IMG/VR virus record: IMGVR_UViG_3300044729_001490
Coordinates: 1 to 64,000 of that record
Source: a virus
Length of the DNA stretch: 64,000 bases
Reading direction: 5' to 3' (one strand)
A program made the position numbers and the translations under genes. Below are positions 5,692-26,500 of this stretch, one piece after another (position 1 is the stretch's first letter; each line of letters starts with the position of its first letter). The notes under the pieces were generated by a model, which did not search any database, was not told where the DNA came from, and was given only the letters and a program-made list of their open reading frames with translations.

Positions 5692-6849
5692 ATGACGACC
5701 AAAGAGCTGCAGTTTCCATCGGGAATAAACCGTCGCTTATCTTTTCGACAGCAAGCTGGGCGAAGAGATAGGTACTTTTCGCCTTACGCAATGAACGTAA
5801 GGATGGAGGATACTTTCGGTCGCTTGAGAGGTGGTTCTTGGACTCCTGCGGCAGCTGCCGTAACTGTAGGGGTCGTGCATTCTGGCGGTTATGTAGTTGC
5901 GACTCCTGGAGGCACTGCGCCTGGCAATAGCAGCAACCGAGATTGTATTTACCGAGATAGGTTCGTTCGTCCTGTTAGTCAAGCTATCTTTGCAAGTCGG
6001 CAAGGAGCATACGCTGATTGGGCGATGAGCGCCGACATAAGCGATGTTGGTCGCCCGTTTGTAATGCAGTTGTCCGAAGCTGGCGAACTAGGCGGCAATA
6101 TCACCGCGCTGGTTCCTCATAAGGATGCGTACATGCTTGCATCAACCAGCGGTTCTCTATGGACTGTTCAAGGCGATCCAGTTGCCGATGGTGGGCTGAG
6201 AAACATTTCGCGTGATGTCGGAATGGTCGGTGCAAGAGCTTGGTGTCGCGACCATCTCGACAGGTATTACTTCCTTTCTTCGCATGGACTGTATACGGTT
6301 GGGGCGAGCGGTGATGGACTGCAAGCAGTATCTGAGGATGTTATTCCTGAAGAGCTAACTGGAGTTTCGGATGTTGACACGGTTCTTGAGTACGACCATG
6401 AAACTCGCGGAGTGTACATTCACATTCCAGATGAGGTGTCTTGGTTGTACGACACAGAGCGGCAAGGGTTCTGGCCGTTCACTGTTGGGTACACTGGGTC
6501 GCATGTTGCTATAGGTCCATTGCTCCTTGGTGACGGGAATACGATTGGTCGACTTAAGCAACTCCATGGAATCACAGCTAACGGAAGCGTAGACATTACT
6601 TGGCGAGTTCTTGTAGCTGACACGGCTGAGCAGGTTAGCGTCAATGCGAAGGCTGCTATTGTCGCTTTGATTGACGGAGACGATGCTTCAAATGTTCACA
6701 GTACGGGAGTTTGGACGGCTGGAATAAATCACAGGAGCTTTCCTCGGTCGAGAGGTCAGTACACGATTCTGTTGTTGTCTGCGGAAAGCGGCAACTGGGC
6801 TTGGGAAGGTGCGTCGATAGTAATAGAGCCATCAGGAAAGTGGAGGTAG
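5692..6849 (+). CDS. Tail nozzle / stabilisation-like beta-propeller protein
   Basis: A 385-residue protein. Near the N-terminus the segment FSPYAMNVRMEDTFGRLRGG is typical of podoviral nozzle or packaged-DNA-stabilisation proteins, which begin with a list of contributed values and an R-GG turn. The remainder has repeating blade-like strands (VPHKDAYMLASTSGSLWTVQ, DHLDRYYFLSSHGLYTVG, YDHETRGVYIHIP, WLYDTERQGFWPF), consistent with a beta-propeller. Its position after the adaptor and before the coiled-coil tail protein matches short-tailed phages. The assignment is by pattern, not by search. Confidence 0.65.
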   Translation: MTTKELQFPSGINRRLSFRQQAGRRDRYFSPYAMNVRMEDTFGRLRGGSWTPAAAAVTVGVVHSGGYVVATPGGTAPGNSSNRDCIYRDRFVRPVSQAIFASRQGAYADWAMSADISDVGRPFVMQLSEAGELGGNITALVPHKDAYMLASTSGSLWTVQGDPVADGGLRNISRDVGMVGARAWCRDHLDRYYFLSSHGLYTVGASGDGLQAVSEDVIPEELTGVSDVDTVLEYDHETRGVYIHIPDEVSWLYDTERQGFWPFTVGYTGSHVAIGPLLLGDGNTIGRLKQLHGITANGSVDITWRVLVADTAEQVSVNAKAAIVALIDGDDASNVHSTGVWTAGINHRSFPRSRGQYTILLLSAESGNWAWEGASIVIEPSGKWR

Positions 6850-6853
6850 TAAA

Positions 6854-9073
6854 ATGCCGATAGAAGTACCAGAAATACCAGAAGTACCATATCAGTTCCC
6901 AAGACAGGATGAGATATACTACCCAGACGTCGCCAACCCAATTCTCGGTGTAGTTTGGAACACGCAAACTATTACGCGAGTCCCAGAGAATGTCATGGGG
7001 TGGCTTGTTGCGCAAGGGTATCAAGTTACTGGTATCACTCAAGACACAACGACAGTCCCGCCAACTAATTACTTCTCGCTTACAAAGGAGGAGGTAGACC
7101 CACAGCAAACGCTACTGAGTGTTTGCAATGCCTACACTTCTGCCGTCAATAACGCGAGGGACGCAAATGAGCATCGGTACAATCAGGTAGTTACCAGCTG
7201 GTCGCAAATGGTCAGCACCTCGCAAGAGCAGTTTAATAAACAGGTAGAGCAGCAGAATGAGCAAGCTGGGATATTTTTTACTGACTTAGATAGCTACATG
7301 ACTGCTATCGAAACGTTAATCGCAGATAACCAGTCGGAGTTTGCATTAGACGCATCGGAAGCAAAAGTCTCGCTGGTGGTAATGGACTCGCGATTGACTG
7401 AGCTGGAAGACAATGCGGCGGATAGCGCAGTTATCATCACCAATTTGTTGACTGAGCAAGAAAATAACCTGCAGGCATACATCTCCAGCTACGATGCTCG
7501 ACTTGCTGAATTGCAGAATAATGTTACCGACCATATAGCCACAGTGCTTGCTGACGTGAGTTCGCTTGAAGCAGTGCTTGAGTCTCACGTCGCAGACTAT
7601 GCGCAGCAGTTCGATTTGCTAGTTTCGAATTACAATAATCACGTAGTGGATATTGACGCCTTGCTGGCAAACGTAGCTAGCAACGTTACAACCTACGTTA
7701 CGGATGTTGCTACAATTTTGACTGCGTTAGACAGCGACTACCAGGCTGTATCGACAGATCTTGGTGCAATCAGGACAACCGCTGGAAACTTGGTTGATGC
7801 GCATGTGCTTGATTATAACGCAGTCTTGGCTTTGCTAAGCAGCGACTACACAACACAGGCGTCGACAATTAGAGCTGTTGTGAATTTCCTGTTTCCAGAC
7901 TACGCGGCACATGCAACGGTCACCAGAAATATCACTGGTACGCTGGAGAGCGACTACCTATTGCACAGTCCAGCAGCCACGGCTTTTCTGGATGACCTCG
8001 GGTCTACGGAGCGTGCCAGGATAAACGAGCAAGCTGCCGCAAGTCTTTCGGTGCAGATGCAAATGCTTGTGTCTAAGGGGTTGTATATGTCAACCATCCC
8101 TGTCGACGTTACGCAGCGAAACTGGCGGGACAGGGATGAGAATATTCAGCTGCATAACGACCGCTTGATGCGAGAGAAGTACGACAATCAGCACAGGTTA
8201 TACGAACAGCAGCGTGGCGTGCGTTCGCAGACAATGGACAACGAGCACAGGCTGTACGAACAGCAGCGTGCAATGCGTGCGCAGATAATCGACGCTGAAG
8301 GGCGGCTGTACGAACAGCAGGCTGGCATGAGAGCTCGGACGCTTGATGGCAAAAACCAAGTCCACACAGTGCAGCAGGAGGTGTTGCGGTACCAGGCTTC
8401 GTTAATCAGTGGAGTCTATGCGTTGCTCCAAGACACTCGCAATCGCGTGCTGTCAGGTAAGCAAGCTATTTTTGCAGCTAGAGACGCCAATGAGAGGCTT
8501 GGAATAGAAGTTCAAACACGGCTATATTCGCAATTGCAAGACGTACGGCAGAGGATAATCGAATCTGCCGACAGGATTTATCAGTTGCGGGATGTGTACG
8601 CCAAGTGGGCTAACACAGAGACGCACCGAACCTATGAACAATTGCAGCAAATAAAGCAACAGTTTGTGGAAGCAGTCGAGCGTCAGCACGCAGCGAAACA
8701 AACAGTAACTCGGACCGAGATGTCGCAGAGGGATACGCTTTTGCAGCAACTGCAAACAGCACTTACTGGCGTTCTTGGCGGAAAAGAAAGATTCTCGAAC
8801 TTGCTTATGCAGAACGCTAACGCATTGTCCGCCAGCAAGCATAGAGCAATCGCAGAAAGAATGAACACTGCGGCACAGCGACTTGATGGCTGGAAGTCTA
8901 TTGCTGACGAGAACCGCAAGTTAATGATGTACCAATTGGACGAGAGGAACAAGCTGCTTGTTGGCTTGTACTCATTCGTTGAGCGCCGCGATGACATAGG
9001 TCCATCTTGGCAAGATGCGGCAAGAGTTGTTACTTCGCTCGGAGATGCTGCTGGAGGCTGGATCCAGCCCTGA
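6854..9073 (+). CDS. Long alpha-helical tail protein with 18-residue repeats
   Basis: A 739-residue protein. After a Pro/Glu-rich start it becomes almost wholly alpha-helical with many Gln, Asn and Asp residues. Residues about 445-500 hold three 18-residue repeats (HRLYEQQRGVRSQTMDNE and two variants), echoed at DNA level by a 54-nt period near 8190-8350. Shorter repeats of the form SDYxxxSxDL occur around residues 290-370. Such long helical proteins in this position usually form a tail needle, internal tube or ejected tail component. There are no enzymatic motifs. It starts 4 bp after the nozzle gene, so it is in the same operon. Confidence 0.6.
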   Translation: MPIEVPEIPEVPYQFPRQDEIYYPDVANPILGVVWNTQTITRVPENVMGWLVAQGYQVTGITQDTTTVPPTNYFSLTKEEVDPQQTLLSVCNAYTSAVNNARDANEHRYNQVVTSWSQMVSTSQEQFNKQVEQQNEQAGIFFTDLDSYMTAIETLIADNQSEFALDASEAKVSLVVMDSRLTELEDNAADSAVIITNLLTEQENNLQAYISSYDARLAELQNNVTDHIATVLADVSSLEAVLESHVADYAQQFDLLVSNYNNHVVDIDALLANVASNVTTYVTDVATILTALDSDYQAVSTDLGAIRTTAGNLVDAHVLDYNAVLALLSSDYTTQASTIRAVVNFLFPDYAAHATVTRNITGTLESDYLLHSPAATAFLDDLGSTERARINEQAAASLSVQMQMLVSKGLYMSTIPVDVTQRNWRDRDENIQLHNDRLMREKYDNQHRLYEQQRGVRSQTMDNEHRLYEQQRAMRAQIIDAEGRLYEQQAGMRARTLDGKNQVHTVQQEVLRYQASLISGVYALLQDTRNRVLSGKQAIFAARDANERLGIEVQTRLYSQLQDVRQRIIESADRIYQLRDVYAKWANTETHRTYEQLQQIKQQFVEAVERQHAAKQTVTRTEMSQRDTLLQQLQTALTGVLGGKERFSNLLMQNANALSASKHRAIAERMNTAAQRLDGWKSIADENRKLMMYQLDERNKLLVGLYSFVERRDDIGPSWQDAARVVTSLGDAAGGWIQP

Positions 9074-9134
9074 TGATTGATTTGCGGCTTAAAGCGTGTT
9101 TTTGTGTAGATGACTAACTTAAAGGAAAAAGAAA

Positions 9135-9773
9135 ATGGCTAATCCTACAAACCTACCTGGCGACTTGATTGTTCCAGGCGATATTCGCGTAACTGGCAAG
9201 ATGTCGCCAGCAATGTCCAAGGCGAACATCCTCGCCTTAGCTGAACTGCAAGCGTTCCCTGTTTCGCTGACTGACTTTCGAGTTTGGGATGCCATGCAGA
9301 CCAGCCTGCCTGGAACGCCAGCTACTGACGACCTTGGCTTAGTGGGTGGAACATTCGGAACGGCGACTCCATCGCTGAGGTCAGAAGACTTAAAGACTCT
9401 TGGCGCGACTAACAAGCGAGCTCGAGTCTTGGTGCAACTTCCGTGGGAGTACGTGGCTGGCGAAAGCGTTACACTGCGATTCATGGCTGGAATGATTACG
9501 ACGGTCGCCGGAACAACTGCAACCATCGACTGCGAGGCTTATAAGCTTCAGTCTGACCCTGATGACGCTATCGGTTCTGACCTCGTTAGCACATCTGCGA
9601 CGACCATGAACAGTCTTGTATTTGCGAATGTCGACTTCGTGGTGACTCCAAGTTCGTTGTCTCCTGGAGACATTCTGGACGTTCGCGTCACGTGTGCAGT
9701 AAATGACGGAGCTTCGGCGACCGCGGTTATTGCTGGCATAACATCCTGCAAATTACTTTGTGACGTTCGGTAG
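9135..9773 (+). CDS. Hypothetical virion/fibre protein
   Basis: A 212-residue protein preceded by a clear AAAGGAAAAAG binding site. The N-terminus has a short beta-turn run (NLPGDLIVPGDIRVTGK) of the sort used as an anchoring or trimerising tip in phage fibres. The remainder is a beta-sandwich-like domain (ARVLVQLPWEYVAGESVTLRF, then IDCEAYKLQ, DVRVTCAVND). It is followed directly by a copy of the dispersed palindrome. No enzyme motif is seen, and the role is inferred from location between tail and collagen-fibre genes. Confidence 0.5.
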   Translation: MANPTNLPGDLIVPGDIRVTGKMSPAMSKANILALAELQAFPVSLTDFRVWDAMQTSLPGTPATDDLGLVGGTFGTATPSLRSEDLKTLGATNKRARVLVQLPWEYVAGESVTLRFMAGMITTVAGTTATIDCEAYKLQSDPDDAIGSDLVSTSATTMNSLVFANVDFVVTPSSLSPGDILDVRVTCAVNDGASATAVIAGITSCKLLCDVR

Positions 9774-9781
9774 AGCATTCA

Positions 9782-9804
9782 TTTTGTGACAGCGTGTCAC
9801 AAAA
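9782..9804. repeat. Dispersed palindrome, copy 1
   Basis: Perfect 10-nt arms around a GCG centre (core GTGACAGCGTGTCAC with T4 and A4 flanks). It ends 21 nt before the ATA that begins the next gene, the same distance as the copy at 55536 has to the terminase ATG. There is no T-tract on the 3' side, so it is not a standard terminator. Confidence 0.85.
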
Positions 9805-9825
9805 ACTACGGAAGGCAGGTGTAGC

Positions 9826-12717
<2,892 letters not shown>

Positions 12718-13245: not shown

Positions 13246-14313
13246 ATGCGAATCGTAGCCACAATGCTCGCGGGAAATACTGAGGCTATCGCTGCAGATG
13301 CTGCCACCTCTGTCATTGATTTTGTTGACGAACTATGCCTTATCAACACTGGCATTACGGATAACACAATAGGCGTGGTGCGTGACGCAGTTGGCGACAA
13401 ACTACATGTGGAAAGTTATGCATGGACTAACGATTTTGGTGCGGCACGCAACGCTGCACTCGAATGCGCTTTAAAGCGCGGAGCTGACTGGTCGCTTTTT
13501 GTAGATACAGATGAGCGTTTTGCATTTCCAGGCTATAAAACACGCAGTGAACTAAACCAAGCGCTTGATGGAGCAAATATCTGGCTTGTGCAGCAACAGA
13601 ACGGCACGTACGCTCAGGATCGATTTATCAGAATCCCAACTAATGCGTTCTGGCACGGAAGAGTACACGAGGGGCTTTGTAGTACTGAGAAGCGTTCAAT
13701 ACTTCCCGGTTGTTCGTTCTACGAGCTACCGAAAAACCCAGAATCGCTTAAGTCTAAGTTTGAACGCGATTTAGTTGTTTTGCTGGAAGAGGTGGCTGTA
13801 CACAAGGACAAGCCTAGATGGCACTACTATCTCGGTCAGACACTGGAATGCCTTGGCGAGACAAGAAAGGCTATAGATGCTTACGATAACTGCATAATGC
13901 TCGATGGGTGGGCTGATGAATCAGCGTGGGCTTGCTATACCGCAGCCCGATGCTGCTCAACACTTGGCGAGTATAAGCAGGCTGAGAAGTTCTGTGCCGC
14001 TGGGATGACAAGGAAGCCACGCATGCCAGAGCTTCCGTGGCTTGCAGGTTGGTGCTGCTACAAACGCGGAGCGTACGAAGATGCGATAGCGTGGAGCGAG
14101 GTTGCTGCTGCTCTTGGAGGAAGAACAGCTCGCCACGACTCTGGCATGTTTGTGTATCCACCAGCTTGGTGGGAGGCTCCGTACGATGTGATGCGATGGT
14201 CGTATAAAGCGATGGGGCATCGGGATGCAGAGCTAGCGGAAGAAAGATTTAAGGAGATGCTCGCCTTTCGAACTAACAAAACGATTAGCGGGAGTTTAGG
14301 TTATGCCAAGTAG
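13246..14313 (+). CDS. Glycosyltransferase (GT-A like) fused to TPR-like helices
   Basis: A 355-residue protein with GGAGAG upstream. The N-terminal half follows family-2 transferases: a start strand MRIVATMLAGN, then ELCLINTGITDNT, FGAARNAAL, and the nucleotide-metal motif VDTDE at residues 86-90. Residues about 195-300 form TPR-like repeats (WHYYLGQTLECLGETRKAIDAYDNC, WACYTAARCCSTLGEYKQAEKFC). This is the architecture of SunS-like or LPS-type transferases. In this location it could glycosylate a virion fibre or modify the host surface; the acceptor is unknown. Confidence 0.75.
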   Translation: MRIVATMLAGNTEAIAADAATSVIDFVDELCLINTGITDNTIGVVRDAVGDKLHVESYAWTNDFGAARNAALECALKRGADWSLFVDTDERFAFPGYKTRSELNQALDGANIWLVQQQNGTYAQDRFIRIPTNAFWHGRVHEGLCSTEKRSILPGCSFYELPKNPESLKSKFERDLVVLLEEVAVHKDKPRWHYYLGQTLECLGETRKAIDAYDNCIMLDGWADESAWACYTAARCCSTLGEYKQAEKFCAAGMTRKPRMPELPWLAGWCCYKRGAYEDAIAWSEVAAALGGRTARHDSGMFVYPPAWWEAPYDVMRWSYKAMGHRDAELAEERFKEMLAFRTNKTISGSLGYAK

Positions 14314-20500: not shown

Positions 20501-23500
20501 GACCAGGAGAAACAAGATGCTCCAAAGACCAAGAAGGGAGGTGATCCTAATGAAGTCGAAGCCAAAGATGGGCGGCAAAAGCAAGCCAATGCCGATGCCG
20601 AAACCAAAGCCGAAGCCGAAGGGCAAGTAGGCTCTAAAAAAGGTCGGGCGGCGGAGGAAACTCCGTCGTCTGATTCTTCTGTTGGTAAGCCAAGACCGCC
20701 AAAGGGCTACAAGCCTTTGAAGGAGTTCACGCCTGTCGTTACGCAAACTCAATCACCAAATTTGGAGTTGCGAGACAATAGGGACGGCATAAAGGAGCTA
20801 GGTCTTAAAGCTGGCGAAGCGGTAGGTTATCGCGTCTATCCCAAGCGAGGGTCTGTCAAAGGTGGCTACTGGCAGTACGGGACCGTTCAGTATGATCCGA
20901 CCGGTAGCCATGCGTCTATTAAGCTTGAGGACGGGACTGTTGAGTCTGTTGGTGGCTCGCGTCTTATTCGCCTTGAGAAAGAAGAAGCTTCTTCGCCTGA
21001 GTCTTCTAAGTCGTCAGAAAAGGAAAAGGCTGATCGCGATGAAAAGCTTCGAGAGCGATTAAAGACTCTCGATTACGATAACCTGCGAAAGCTCAACAAG
21101 GATGCAATCATCCAGGTTGGTGATGAAGTCATCGGTGATGTTGGTGGTCTTGCTCTTGACGAATTGAATCGCCGTATGGATGAAGATGCGCTCGAGGCGA
21201 TGATTGAGGCGGAGTTCGATAAGCAGACAGAGCCAGTTCAGCCGAAGAAGAAGCGACCTGTTCGTAGGGAAAAAAGCGAATCCGTTCCTTTGCCGAAAAA
21301 GGCTACAGGGAAAAAGGAAACTCGCATTGAGCAAGCGGCAGACAAAGCGCGTAAAGAGGCTGACGACCTTTGGGCTCAATGGGGAAGCGTTGGCGGTGAC
21401 AAGCTGACAGCAGGTTTGGACCCCGAGTTAGCGGCTTTGGCAGTACGAATCGCACTTGCTGAAATAAAGGCTGGAACATTGTCGTTTGCGTCGTTTGTTG
21501 AGAGGACGACAGCGAAAATTCCTGCGGCAATGCTTGAAAAGAGCAAGCCGTACATGGAGATGGCTTGGAAGGTTGCGCACAAGCGGGGTATGACGAGCGA
21601 CCCTGGAGGGAAGTTTGACGCTTACTTGAAAAAGTACGGAACGGCAGAAAATCCAAATCGAGTCGCTTTGGGTAAGTATTTTGCATCAAGACTGCGAGAC
21701 GGAGCTTCTTATGCTCGAATTACAGATGCGAGAAAGGAAGCCGCAGAGCTAATCGGTGGTTCGCCAAAAGATGGAACACAAGCAATCAAGACGATTGACG
21801 AAGCAATAGAGCTTGGTGTCGTAATAGTAGCTAGAGACATCGCGCAGAACGGAGAGACTGACTCTGCCATCTACGATGAGCTTGTTGACTTGTACGAAAG
21901 GCAACCAAATTTAGGAACGAGAACAAGCACCTCGATGCTTAATCAGGCTTACAGTACGCCAGCTCCGTTGGCGTTCCTGGTTAATCGACAGGCTGGAATT
22001 ACGCAAGAGGATACTGTTTACGACTCGTCGGCTGGCAATGGAATGTTGCTAATTGTTGGAGGTAAGCGAATTGCCAACGAGCTGAACCCCGACAGAGTTG
22101 AAGCATTAGAGTCTCAAGGAATCGAGACAACGAGCAATGACGCGACCGAGTTTGAGTTGGACAAACCCATTACTGCGCTGGCAATCAATCCTCCATTTGG
22201 TGAGGTGAAGCAAGAGGATGGAAGCATCAAGCAATGGACAGTTGATGGTGTTAAGACAGACAAAGTGGATCATGCAATCACAATCAAGTCGTTGTCGGAA
22301 ATTCCTGATAGTGGCAAGGTTGCAATCATCATTGGCGCGAAAGGATTCGAGCAAAGAAAATCCAAAGACGATTCAAGGCGAGGAAAAGCGTACTTGAACG
22401 GAAAGGCTTTCTATGACTTTGTGTACGACAAATATAACGTCACGGACCATTACACAGTTGATGGCGACTTGTATTCTCGTCAGGGGGCTTCGTTCCCTGT
22501 CGATGTGATAATCATTGAAGGACGAGGCAAGTCGTCTCGTCCAAAGCCGTACAACATCATTGGCGGCGGAATACCACAAGTGTTTAGTTCTTGGGAGGAC
22601 TTAAAAAATGTCAAGTTACTGGGGAATATCCGACCAGCTGAAAGTGGAACTGGACGAGGGGCAGTTGACACTCGACAAGAAGGATTATCTGAAAAAACTA
22701 CAGGAGACGCTCGACAGGGACCAGAAGGAGTTCGAGCGGGAGCCAGGGGAGTTAATCAACAGGATGGACGAGACGTTCAGGGACCAGGGCAATCTGAAGA
22801 CCTGGGGGGACGTAATAAAGATGCCAATGTTTCTGGACAAGCTGAATCGACTGTGGGGAGCGACCAGCAGTCGTCCAATGAAACCAGAGGAGATAAGCAA
22901 CAATCGAGAGCCAGTAATGGCGGAAACGATAGTCGGGTTTCTGGAGGAGCCAAGAAGCGTGATGCTGGAATCGACAAACTAGATTCGGAAGAGTCAGAGG
23001 TCAAAGGCGACCAGTATCAGTCTGCTTACACGCCAAGCTCTAAGTCAAAGAGTGTTGATGCGCTTATTCCGAACAACCATCAGACAGCTGTTCAGGCGGC
23101 ATTGGATTCCGTTGAGGAGCAGTACGGAGATATAGATGAGTTTGTAGCAAAAGAGCTTGGAGTAAACCAGAAACATCTTCAGAAAGTATTCTCAGCAGAG
23201 CAGGTTGATGCTCTGGCGTTGGCTATAGCAAGACACAAGGATGGGCGTGCGTTTATTCTTGGCGACCAGACAGGCGTTGGGAAAGGTCGCGTGGCAGCTG
23301 GTATGCTCATTTATGCTAAGAAGCAAGGATTAGCTCCAGTATTCTTCACTGAGAAACCAACTCTATACGCAGACATAATTCGGGATTTGATTGATACTGG
23401 ATTCAGCACTGACAGTTCTCCATTCAACCCGTTGATTACGAACGTCACAGCAAAAAAGTCAGACCAGATAGAACTGCCTGACGGAAGGGTTCTTAGGCAA

Positions 23501-26500
23501 ACTGCTGGAGCAGACGAAAGAAATATCACTGAAGCGGTTGGTAATTTCCTTGCTGGTAAAGGCTTGGTGGCAACATCGAAGAAAGCTACCAAAAAGAAAG
23601 CCGCACAGATGGAAAGCTACGATGCAATCTTCACGACGTACAACCAGATGGTGACGGTCAATGGAGAGCTCAAGCCACGGCATACGTTTTTGCAACAGTT
23701 GTCGCCTCGAGCGTTTTTTGTCCTAGATGAAAGCCATAACGCTGGCGGTTCCGCGCAGGATAGCGACCGAGAAAGAGCGGCAAGACCTGACGACATTAAG
23801 ATACCAGTGTCTGAGATGGTTCGGAATCTGATTGAGAATGCTTCTGGTGTTTACTTCTCAAGCGGTACTTATGCCAAACGTCCTAGTGTCATGGACTTGT
23901 ACGCAAAGACAGGCATGACGGCAGCGACTGGACAAGACGGTGACTCGTTGGCTTCTTCTATCGCAGCTGGTGGAGTGCCGTTGCAGCAAATTGTTTCGCA
24001 ACAGCTTGTTGAGTCGGGAGCGTATCTCAGACGAGAGCGTTCGTTTGATGGAGTTGAGTTCAAGCCAGAAGTGTATGACGTCTCTACTGAGGGGGCGGAA
24101 CAGTCTGCGGCTATCTTCAGAGCAATCAATGCGTTCGACAAAATCAAGGGCAAGCTTGTTGAAGAAGAACTGGAGGACGGAGTTACAAGTGCAGGGGGTT
24201 CTATAAAGCCAGACTGGGCGACTGGCGAGGCTGGCATGACCAGCACTAACTTTTCTTCGATATTGTGGAATCTAACGGACCAGATGTTGCTGGCAGTTAA
24301 GTCAGACGTCATTGCCGACGAAGCAATAGCCTCGATAAAAAGGGGCGAATCGCCAGTAATCTATGTTGATGCGACTATGGAGGCGGCATTAAACGCTTAT
24401 ATCGAATCGTCTGGTCTTCAGGTTGGCGAGAAATCAGAGTTTTCGTTTCGTGATCTTTTGCAGAGATACTTGGACAGAAGCAGGGAGGTTTTGGTTCAAA
24501 GAGATGTTGCAGATAAGGATTCATACGAGCAGGTCCGGCTTACGGATGAGCAGTTGGGTAAAATCGGTCTAGCGGCGTTTAATAGGGCACAAGAACTGAT
24601 TGACAACTTCAGTGCAGACTTGCCTGCCTCGCCTATTGATTGGATTCGAAAGCGTATTGAAGACGCTGGATATTCGTTTGGTGAATACACTGGGCGACAG
24701 GTGGTGATGCGTTACGAAACGTCTGATACTGCTACAGTAGAAAAACGACCAGAGGACGAAGTAGGAGCAGCAAACAGAATCAATCTTATTCGCAAGTTCA
24801 ATAACGGCGACTTGGATGTTTTGCTATTTAATCGGTCTGGGTCAACTGGAGTCTCGATGCACGCAAGCGAGAAGGTGAAAAACCAGAAGCCTCGCCACAT
24901 GATTATTGGGCAACCGTCAAGCAATATCGACACATTTATGCAATCGCTAGGCAGAGTCCATAGAACAGGACAGGTAACTTTGCCGAAGTTCACATTGGCA
25001 ATGACTTCTCTTCCGTCTGAGATTCGCCCCTCGAGCGTTTTGGTGAAAAAGCTTGCTAGCTTGAATGCCAATGTTACTGCATCAGACAAAGGAAGTGTTT
25101 CATTCGATGTGCCAGACGTAATGAACGTCATTGGAGACAGAATCGTCGCTGAGTATTTGGCTGAGAATGACGAGCTAAACAGAGCGTTAAACGAAGGTGA
25201 AGAGGAAGGTCTTGTTACTGTAGGAAGGACTGGACAACCAAAAGTTGTTCCTGGGATCGCAAGGAAAGCAAGCGGTCGGCTGGCAATCATGCCAATCAAG
25301 ACACAGCAAGAGTTCTGGGATAGCGTCACGGAGACATTTGCTGACACTATCGCTGAATTAGATCGCATGGGAGCGAATCCGCTTTCAGCTCGAGTAGCCG
25401 ACTTGGACGCGAAGACAGTAGAGTCGTTTCCTGTGTTCGAGGGAGATCCAGATTCGGCGAACGTGTTCGATAGACCAGCGTATATCGAGAAAGTAATTGC
25501 CAAGCGTCCAGGTAAGCCGATGACTCCTGAGGAGATCATGCAGAAAGTCAATTCTTTTTACAAGATAGATTCGTCGGATATGAAAGCTTTAGAAGCAGCG
25601 ATGAATACATGGGAGATGAATCGAAGGGAAGAAGCTATCGCGATACACGCTAAGCGTATTGAAGAAATACGAAACGAAGGATTGGCAAAAGGAACAGATC
25701 CAGAGCGAATTAAAAACAGTATTGATAGAGAGAACCAGCAGAAGCAAAATTTCCTGTATTTGATGCGAGCGTTCATGCCTGGAAGTTCTGTATCGGTTTG
25801 GGAAAGTGGACCTTCTGATGGTTTGGATGTTATTCCAGGGGTAGTTTTGTCTATCGAGAGAAAAGGTAAAGAAGGCAACCCCTTGTCTCTTTCGAAATGG
25901 CGAGCTGAAATAGCGATTGGTTCTCCAGATCGCATTATTAGGATGTCGCTTTCCCAGCTTAGAGTCGCATCGGATCAAAACGACAAGTCAGGTCGAAACA
26001 GCGATTTAGAGGAAGACACTGAAGATAACGTAAAGATTTTTCCGAACCGAGAAATTGTCAGCAAAAGTGTATTAGATGATTTCGTTGAGTCTGAAGTATC
26101 GACTATGGAAACGCGGTATATCGGGACTGGAAACATCCTGGCTGCGTTTAATTTGTTCCGAGAGCAAAAGGGAAGGGTAACGTTCTTTCGCGACTCGGAT
26201 GGAAATCTTCAAAGAGGCGTCTTGCTTCCGCGACGATTCAAAATCGATAAATGGATTAAGGACCAGCCTGTTGGATTTGATAAAGCAGAACAAATACAGC
26301 AATTCCTAGCATCGGGCAATAACTTACAAACACCAGACAGGGCGCTAAGCGTTATGTCTGTTCGTGGTGAGCTTGTTTTGAGAGCGCCGAAGTCGAAAGC
26401 CAGAGGTGGAAAGTACACGCTAAATCAGGTAATCCTGAAAGCGTCGTCGCCACAAGAGTTTGTTTCCATTGGCTCCAGGATGGAGATGGTGGTTGACAAC

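Follow-up and report, generated by a model that had tools for sequence, protein, structure and literature searches.

The present study analyzes a stretch of viral DNA of 64,000 nucleotides (the window), part of a 70,387-base IMG/VR virus record, and concerns an open reading frame (ORF) lying wholly inside a giant gene and read in its +1 frame (Table 1). The giant protein carries an adenine methyltransferase (approximately residues 1440-1670) and an SF2 helicase in one polypeptide, as indicated by NPPF, AAA_34 and Helicase_C_4, and so meets the definition of its host-gene class. Across the nested ORF, the giant frame reads as a hydrophilic linker rich in Gly, Gln, Asp, Arg and Ser between methyltransferase and Strawberry-notch helicase. 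The original prediction, made from this sequence alone, was of an additional gene in the linker with a 124-residue product lacking cysteine and a GGAGG ahead of its start, and all of these features are present as described. The TAA just upstream of the ATG means that the nested ORF could not be entered by a frameshift from further upstream. Elsewhere in the window, a beta-1,4-glycosyltransferase is predicted at 13246-14313, downstream of the tail fibre gene (phrog_13126, E 5e-27).

Table 1. Coordinates in the window of the giant gene, its domains and the nested ORF.
Feature	Position	Strand	Basis or remark
Giant polyvalent gene, 4513 codons/aa	17588..31129	+	DarB-like methyltransferase/helicase protein
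N6-adenine methyltransferase part (NPPF motif)	21911..22607, approximate bounds	+	alignment A1; phrog_9133 match, residues 1442-1591
GGAGG, Shine-Dalgarno-like, 9 nt before ATG	22594..22598	+	read from sequence
TAA in nested-ORF frame, just upstream of ATG	22602..22604	+	read from sequence
Nested ORF, ATG to stop, 124 aa, no Cys	22608..22982	+	+1 relative to giant frame
Remaining linker and helicase module start	22983..23180	+	giant frame only
AAA_34 (Strawberry-notch NTPase) domain	23180..24091	+	PF13872 E 4.2e-19, residues 1865-2168
Helicase_C_4 (Strawberry-notch C-terminal) domain	24683..25081	+	PF13871 E 7.9e-22, residues 2366-2498

Length and composition had been offered as arguments that the ORF is a gene. 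The ORF is real, but these properties are insufficient on their own, and it is the relatives that carry the proof. When the giant gene was shuffled synonymously, 7-9% of the shuffles had no +1 stop anywhere along the ORF, and 31% contained, at some place in +1, an ATG ORF of 124 amino acids or more; the giant gene also has numerous alternative frames longer than the nested ORF, up to 279 amino acids. Codon-usage and shuffle tests on the single sequence gave no decision on the window ORF.

Nested ORFs in homologous loci

No close relatives of the window were found by DNA or single-protein searches of phages and viral contigs. An alignment of the methyltransferase-helicase region used as query matched 80 viral and 80 bacterial loci, plus plasmid and phage records, and the linker could be delimited between both domains in 165 homologous methyltransferase/Strawberry-notch-helicase loci. 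That the frame should be open in relatives had been set beforehand as the test by which the original prediction could fail, and it passed: a +1 ORF of 70 codons or longer occupies the corresponding site, after the methyltransferase domain, in 143 of the 165 loci. The median open span over the 162 stop-free linkers was 132 codons in +1 vs 42 in +2. Among non-redundant cases the +1 frame was open in 116 of 116, compared with approximately 30 of 116 expected from shuffles that keep the giant protein, and the ORF began with ATG in 111 of the 116. There was a Shine-Dalgarno-like site in 81% of 107 homologues vs 46% expected from the giant protein sequence. The closest relative of the window, L010, has approximately 51% identity with it in the flanking domains and approximately 29% in the ORF, and its +1 ORF is exactly 124 codons long and is preceded by GGAGGAG. 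In the 22 loci without a nested ORF the +1 spans were mostly short (14-94 codons) and base composition was ordinary in most linkers. Four loci (L087, L114, L137 and L141) had far longer linkers of 280-350 amino acids, with extra giant-frame sequence beyond the nested ORF. Many of the loci are related, so locus counts are not independent, and the test on 24 pairs and the tree described below correct for this only partly.

The protein family and its predicted fold

The +1 products of 116 of the 143 loci fell in a single BLASTP component, with sizes of approximately 90-230 amino acids (median 131) and a shared pattern consisting of a near-invariant W.P near the N-terminus, then L.aV.vP..L......yL..L..Rv, later FP, and L..W near the end. 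The window ORF scored 13.9 bits against a family profile built without it, a score reached by none of 500 giant-frame synonymous shuffles (best 10.8), and leave-one-out profiles gave 19.0 bits for L010, 53.9 for L087 and 42.3 for L101, again with 0 of 500 shuffles reaching the score in each case. Judged by these profile scores, the window ORF is a divergent member of the family. Across the 165 linkers, 138 +1 translations but no +2 and no giant-frame translations scored at least 20 bits, a count that is partly circular since the profile contains most of the sequences scored. Some divergent groups, among them Bacteroides and the short forms, were not clearly above shuffles when left out of the profile, and their homology therefore rests on position and frame.

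Searches of Pfam, NCBIfam, PHROGs, PADLOC and PDB sequences gave no profile match common to the members, only scattered matches of single members attributable to chance; PDB profile matches were to interleukin-6 (E ~0.01-0.07) and were taken as chance. Single family members used as queries against phages and plasmids gave no match. For the protein of locus L030, AlphaFold2 with 61 family members predicted short N-terminal strands followed by helices, with pLDDT 95.4 and pTM 0.88. Structure prediction of the 124-residue window product, proposed as a check when the ORF was first noticed, gave pLDDT 77.2 and pTM 0.70, with an order of secondary structures similar to that of L030, albeit without direct superposition. 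Foldseek found no match at E < 0.001 in PDB and BFVD, and VIA gave Z of at most 2.6; absence of a structural match does not prove a new fold.

Selection in the overlap

Over 639 pairs of relatives, the proportions of differences at positions 1, 2 and 3 of the giant codons were.38,.30 and.23 in the overlap, vs.26,.18 and.58 in the methyltransferase flank and.22,.13 and.54 in the helicase flank. The giant wobble base, on which the second codon position of the small ORF falls, changes least of the three positions within the overlap and most in either flank, which is the excess conservation at giant-frame synonymous sites that the original prediction required. Differences were then classified by their effect in both frames. 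In 24 pairs sharing no sequence, dN/dS (dNN/dNS) of the small ORF was 0.30 (bootstrap 0.25-0.37) and that of the giant frame in the overlap was 1.01 (0.85-1.16), indicating purifying selection in the small frame. Applied to the methyltransferase flank, the same statistic was 0.69 in a pseudo-ORF, with the giant frame at 0.13. The counting ignores transition bias and treats multiple substitutions only by Jukes-Cantor, and its baseline in the flank is 0.69 and not 1. These values come from other members of the family and not from the window copy, whose nearest relative, L010, is too distant.

The giant frame was open in 116 of 116 cases vs 23 expected were only the small protein constrained. An open giant frame with dN/dS of approximately 1 implies that the fusion of the enzymes is maintained while the amino acids of the linker are immaterial, being forced by the small gene. 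On these substitution patterns, the small ORF is inferred to be the constrained gene and the “disordered linker” of the giant protein its neutral shadow. Overprinting, as originally envisaged, thus holds in that a nested gene does occur there, and is mistaken in casting that gene as an addition to an existing linker. In one clade the mean amino acid difference was 45% for the small protein vs 36% and 29% for the flanking domains. There were also pairs of loci (L029/L065, L039/L051 and L041/L065) in which the nested ORFs were nearly identical and the methyltransferase and/or helicase flanks strongly diverged, which suggests recombination around the nested gene.

Distribution and the domain junction

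The nested family occurs in phages, plasmids, Cyanobacteriota, Pseudomonadota and Thermodesulfobacteriota and, by position, in Bacteroidota. Culturable carriers include Picosynechococcus PCC 7003 and PCC 7117 (L003, L136) and Bacteroides phage BS-TP4 (L006). The idea that the overlap is a local economy of one phage, gaining a protein at no cost in length, is accordingly not supported, the gene being old and widespread and present in plasmids and bacterial genomes also. The family profile gave 31 matches over 35 whole host genomes; those fetched and inspected are +1 ORFs of a single gene, flanked by its methyltransferase and its helicase, with the exception of L199, where these two are broken, and no standalone copy was seen among them. 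None of the inspected annotated records carrying the ORF had a feature annotated for it, and a literature search, which left most subscription papers and preprints outside its coverage, found no paper describing the nested gene.

A helicase tree built quickly from 139 sequences accounts for presence of the ORF by 2 changes, vs a shuffled mean of 23, as expected if the ORF was gained once and subsequently lost in one Bacteroidota clade. In this tree the window lies with L010 and L087 inside the ORF-bearing part. In Bacteroidota homologues without the ORF (L150, L146, L161, L112 and L160), the two enzyme domains are separated by a MutS_I domain inserted in frame (PF01624, E as low as 2e-20). The possibility that ORF-less loci contain an in-frame homologue of the small protein was rejected, with the slot holding MutS_I and profile comparison giving a probability of 0.1. 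In L163, methyltransferase and helicase are two adjacent ORFs (5953-7011 and 7024-11640), an arrangement that could be split or ancestral.

A search with the portal protein identified 80 close phage relatives of the window phage. The methyltransferase-helicase module was absent from all 36 searched records of portal-sharing phages, so that they are of no use for measuring selection on the window copy. Nine large genomes of portal-sharing phages were compared (L209, L210, L222, L223, L229, L231, L237, L252 and L277), and seven had a giant gene matching the C-terminal 1043 amino acids of the window giant protein, in open frames of 1931-5168 codons and with identity to the window C-terminus of up to 47%. 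Since C-terminal matches occur in seven of nine but the module in none of the 36 records, giant genes appear to acquire and lose the module, nested gene included, by swapping.

Discussion

Patterns detected are consistent with 22608-22982 being a genuine nested protein-coding gene and a member of a previously unannotated +1 family, and we hold this with high confidence even though it is a reading of sequences without expression data. An alternative explanation could be that the frame is open by chance, a hydrophilic linker short of NTN codons making a long +1 ORF trivial. A stop in +1 can arise only from a giant codon whose second base is T, and such codons are scarce in the window linker (12% vs 24% gene-wide), so that an open +1 frame comes easily; 20% of single-sequence shuffles had an open span as long as that of the window, and darB of phage P1 has chance +1 ORFs of 118 and 127 amino acids with scrambled composition. 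Chance does not, however, predict that ATG and a Shine-Dalgarno-like site are conserved, that wobble bases of the giant frame vary less than its first bases, that dN/dS is 0.30 for the small frame and 1.0 for the giant one, or that the products are homologous and one is predicted to fold with a pLDDT of 95. Moreover, homologues without the ORF mostly have linkers of normal NTN content (0.2-0.3), suggesting that the ORF is the cause of the linker composition, and chance is in our estimation extremely improbable. It is also very improbable that the frame is reached by programmed frameshifting into +1, yielding a fusion of methyltransferase and ORF in place of internal initiation. Upstream AAGGAG sequences resembling a Shine-Dalgarno site can stimulate frameshifting in known cases, but frameshifting would not account for the ATG kept in 111 of 116, and a shift would have almost no room, the ORF's frame having a stop at most 5 codons before the start in 64%, and at most 2 in the window.

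For a genuine nested gene, the mechanism we infer is internal initiation at the nested ATG on the mRNA of the giant gene, although expression has not been shown, by which the small protein would be made together with the methyltransferase-helicase. It may then be a partner dedicated to that enzyme, serving as a subunit or regulator where methyltransferase and helicase meet, or else assisting in the loading of the giant protein into a virion or a transfer apparatus. That the small protein acts with the DarB-like anti-restriction enzyme in one of these capacities is an inference that we favor to a modest degree only, the sole basis for a partner role being exclusive co-occurrence, i.e. that no copy was found elsewhere. 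It may instead be an independent anti-defence or moron protein hiding in the giant gene and not acting with the methyltransferase-helicase. Its fast divergence relative to the flanking domains would suit a protein in an arms race, and there is a precedent in ardD, an anti-restriction gene nested antisense in tniA of Tn5053 (PMC3533173), but an independent effector should sometimes stand alone, and no copies were found outside a methyltransferase/Strawberry-notch gene in 35 genomes; we consider this rather unlikely, while not negligible. The more specific possibility of a virion-loading helper, like Ulx for DarB in phage P1, draws on the listing of Ulx, a 17-kDa protein whose gene adjoins darB, as aiding DarB localization (PMC9024508) and on the association of DarB-like giant proteins with virions in P1 and JC1 (PMC9024508, PMC9144972). 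However, family and Ulx are not similar in sequence (hhalign probability 0.1), and the family is found also on plasmids and in cyanobacterial genomes with no evident virion; this role is more doubtful still.

The host gene has known counterparts. In P1, DarB guards the phage DNA against type I restriction and is carried inside the head (PMC5512222, PMC9024508); virions of phage JC1 contain a DarB-like protein of 4515 amino acids (PMC9144972). The window giant protein, with its adenine methylase fused to a Strawberry-notch-like ATPase, fits the polyvalent proteins with a methylase-helicase dyad described in PMC5512222, where a word search found no mention of any overlap. P1 DarB and Ulx resemble the present system in that DarB, from a mobile element, joins a methyltransferase and an SF2 helicase and has a small partner whose gene is adjacent (PMC9024508), but Ulx has a separate gene and no detectable similarity to the nested family, and it is offered as a functional analogy only. 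A nested family ORF was sought in P1 darB itself and rejected, the products of its +1 ORFs not being family-like. The ardD gene likewise acts against restriction and lies within a second gene of a mobile element, but it is antisense and its host gene encodes a transposase. The regulatory gene comS of Bacillus subtilis is similar in encoding a small protein out of frame in a giant gene of unrelated function, srfAB (PMC8160284); in contrast to comS, the present gene always occupies one domain junction.

As regards origin, a tentative reading, which we would put at somewhat under even, is that the methyltransferase/helicase junction is a plug-in slot, filled by in-frame MutS-I in one Bacteroidota lineage and elsewhere mostly by an obligate specificity, clamp or regulatory subunit encoded out of frame, with the linker merely the neutral consequence of an old gene having been caught between the enzyme domains when they fused.

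Long out-of-frame nested genes have rarely been established in bacteria and phages because annotation pipelines discard them and evidence of selection is usually weak. The present gene differs, also from comS, in being conserved across phages, plasmids and several phyla and under stronger constraint than the stretch of host gene that it overlaps, and its small protein has a compact fold, predicted with confidence, for which no match was found. If the inferences made here hold, the nested gene is a new component of the anti-restriction methyltransferase-helicases of mobile elements, and the mechanism of these enzymes becomes testable, since a change silent in the giant frame can abolish the small protein alone.
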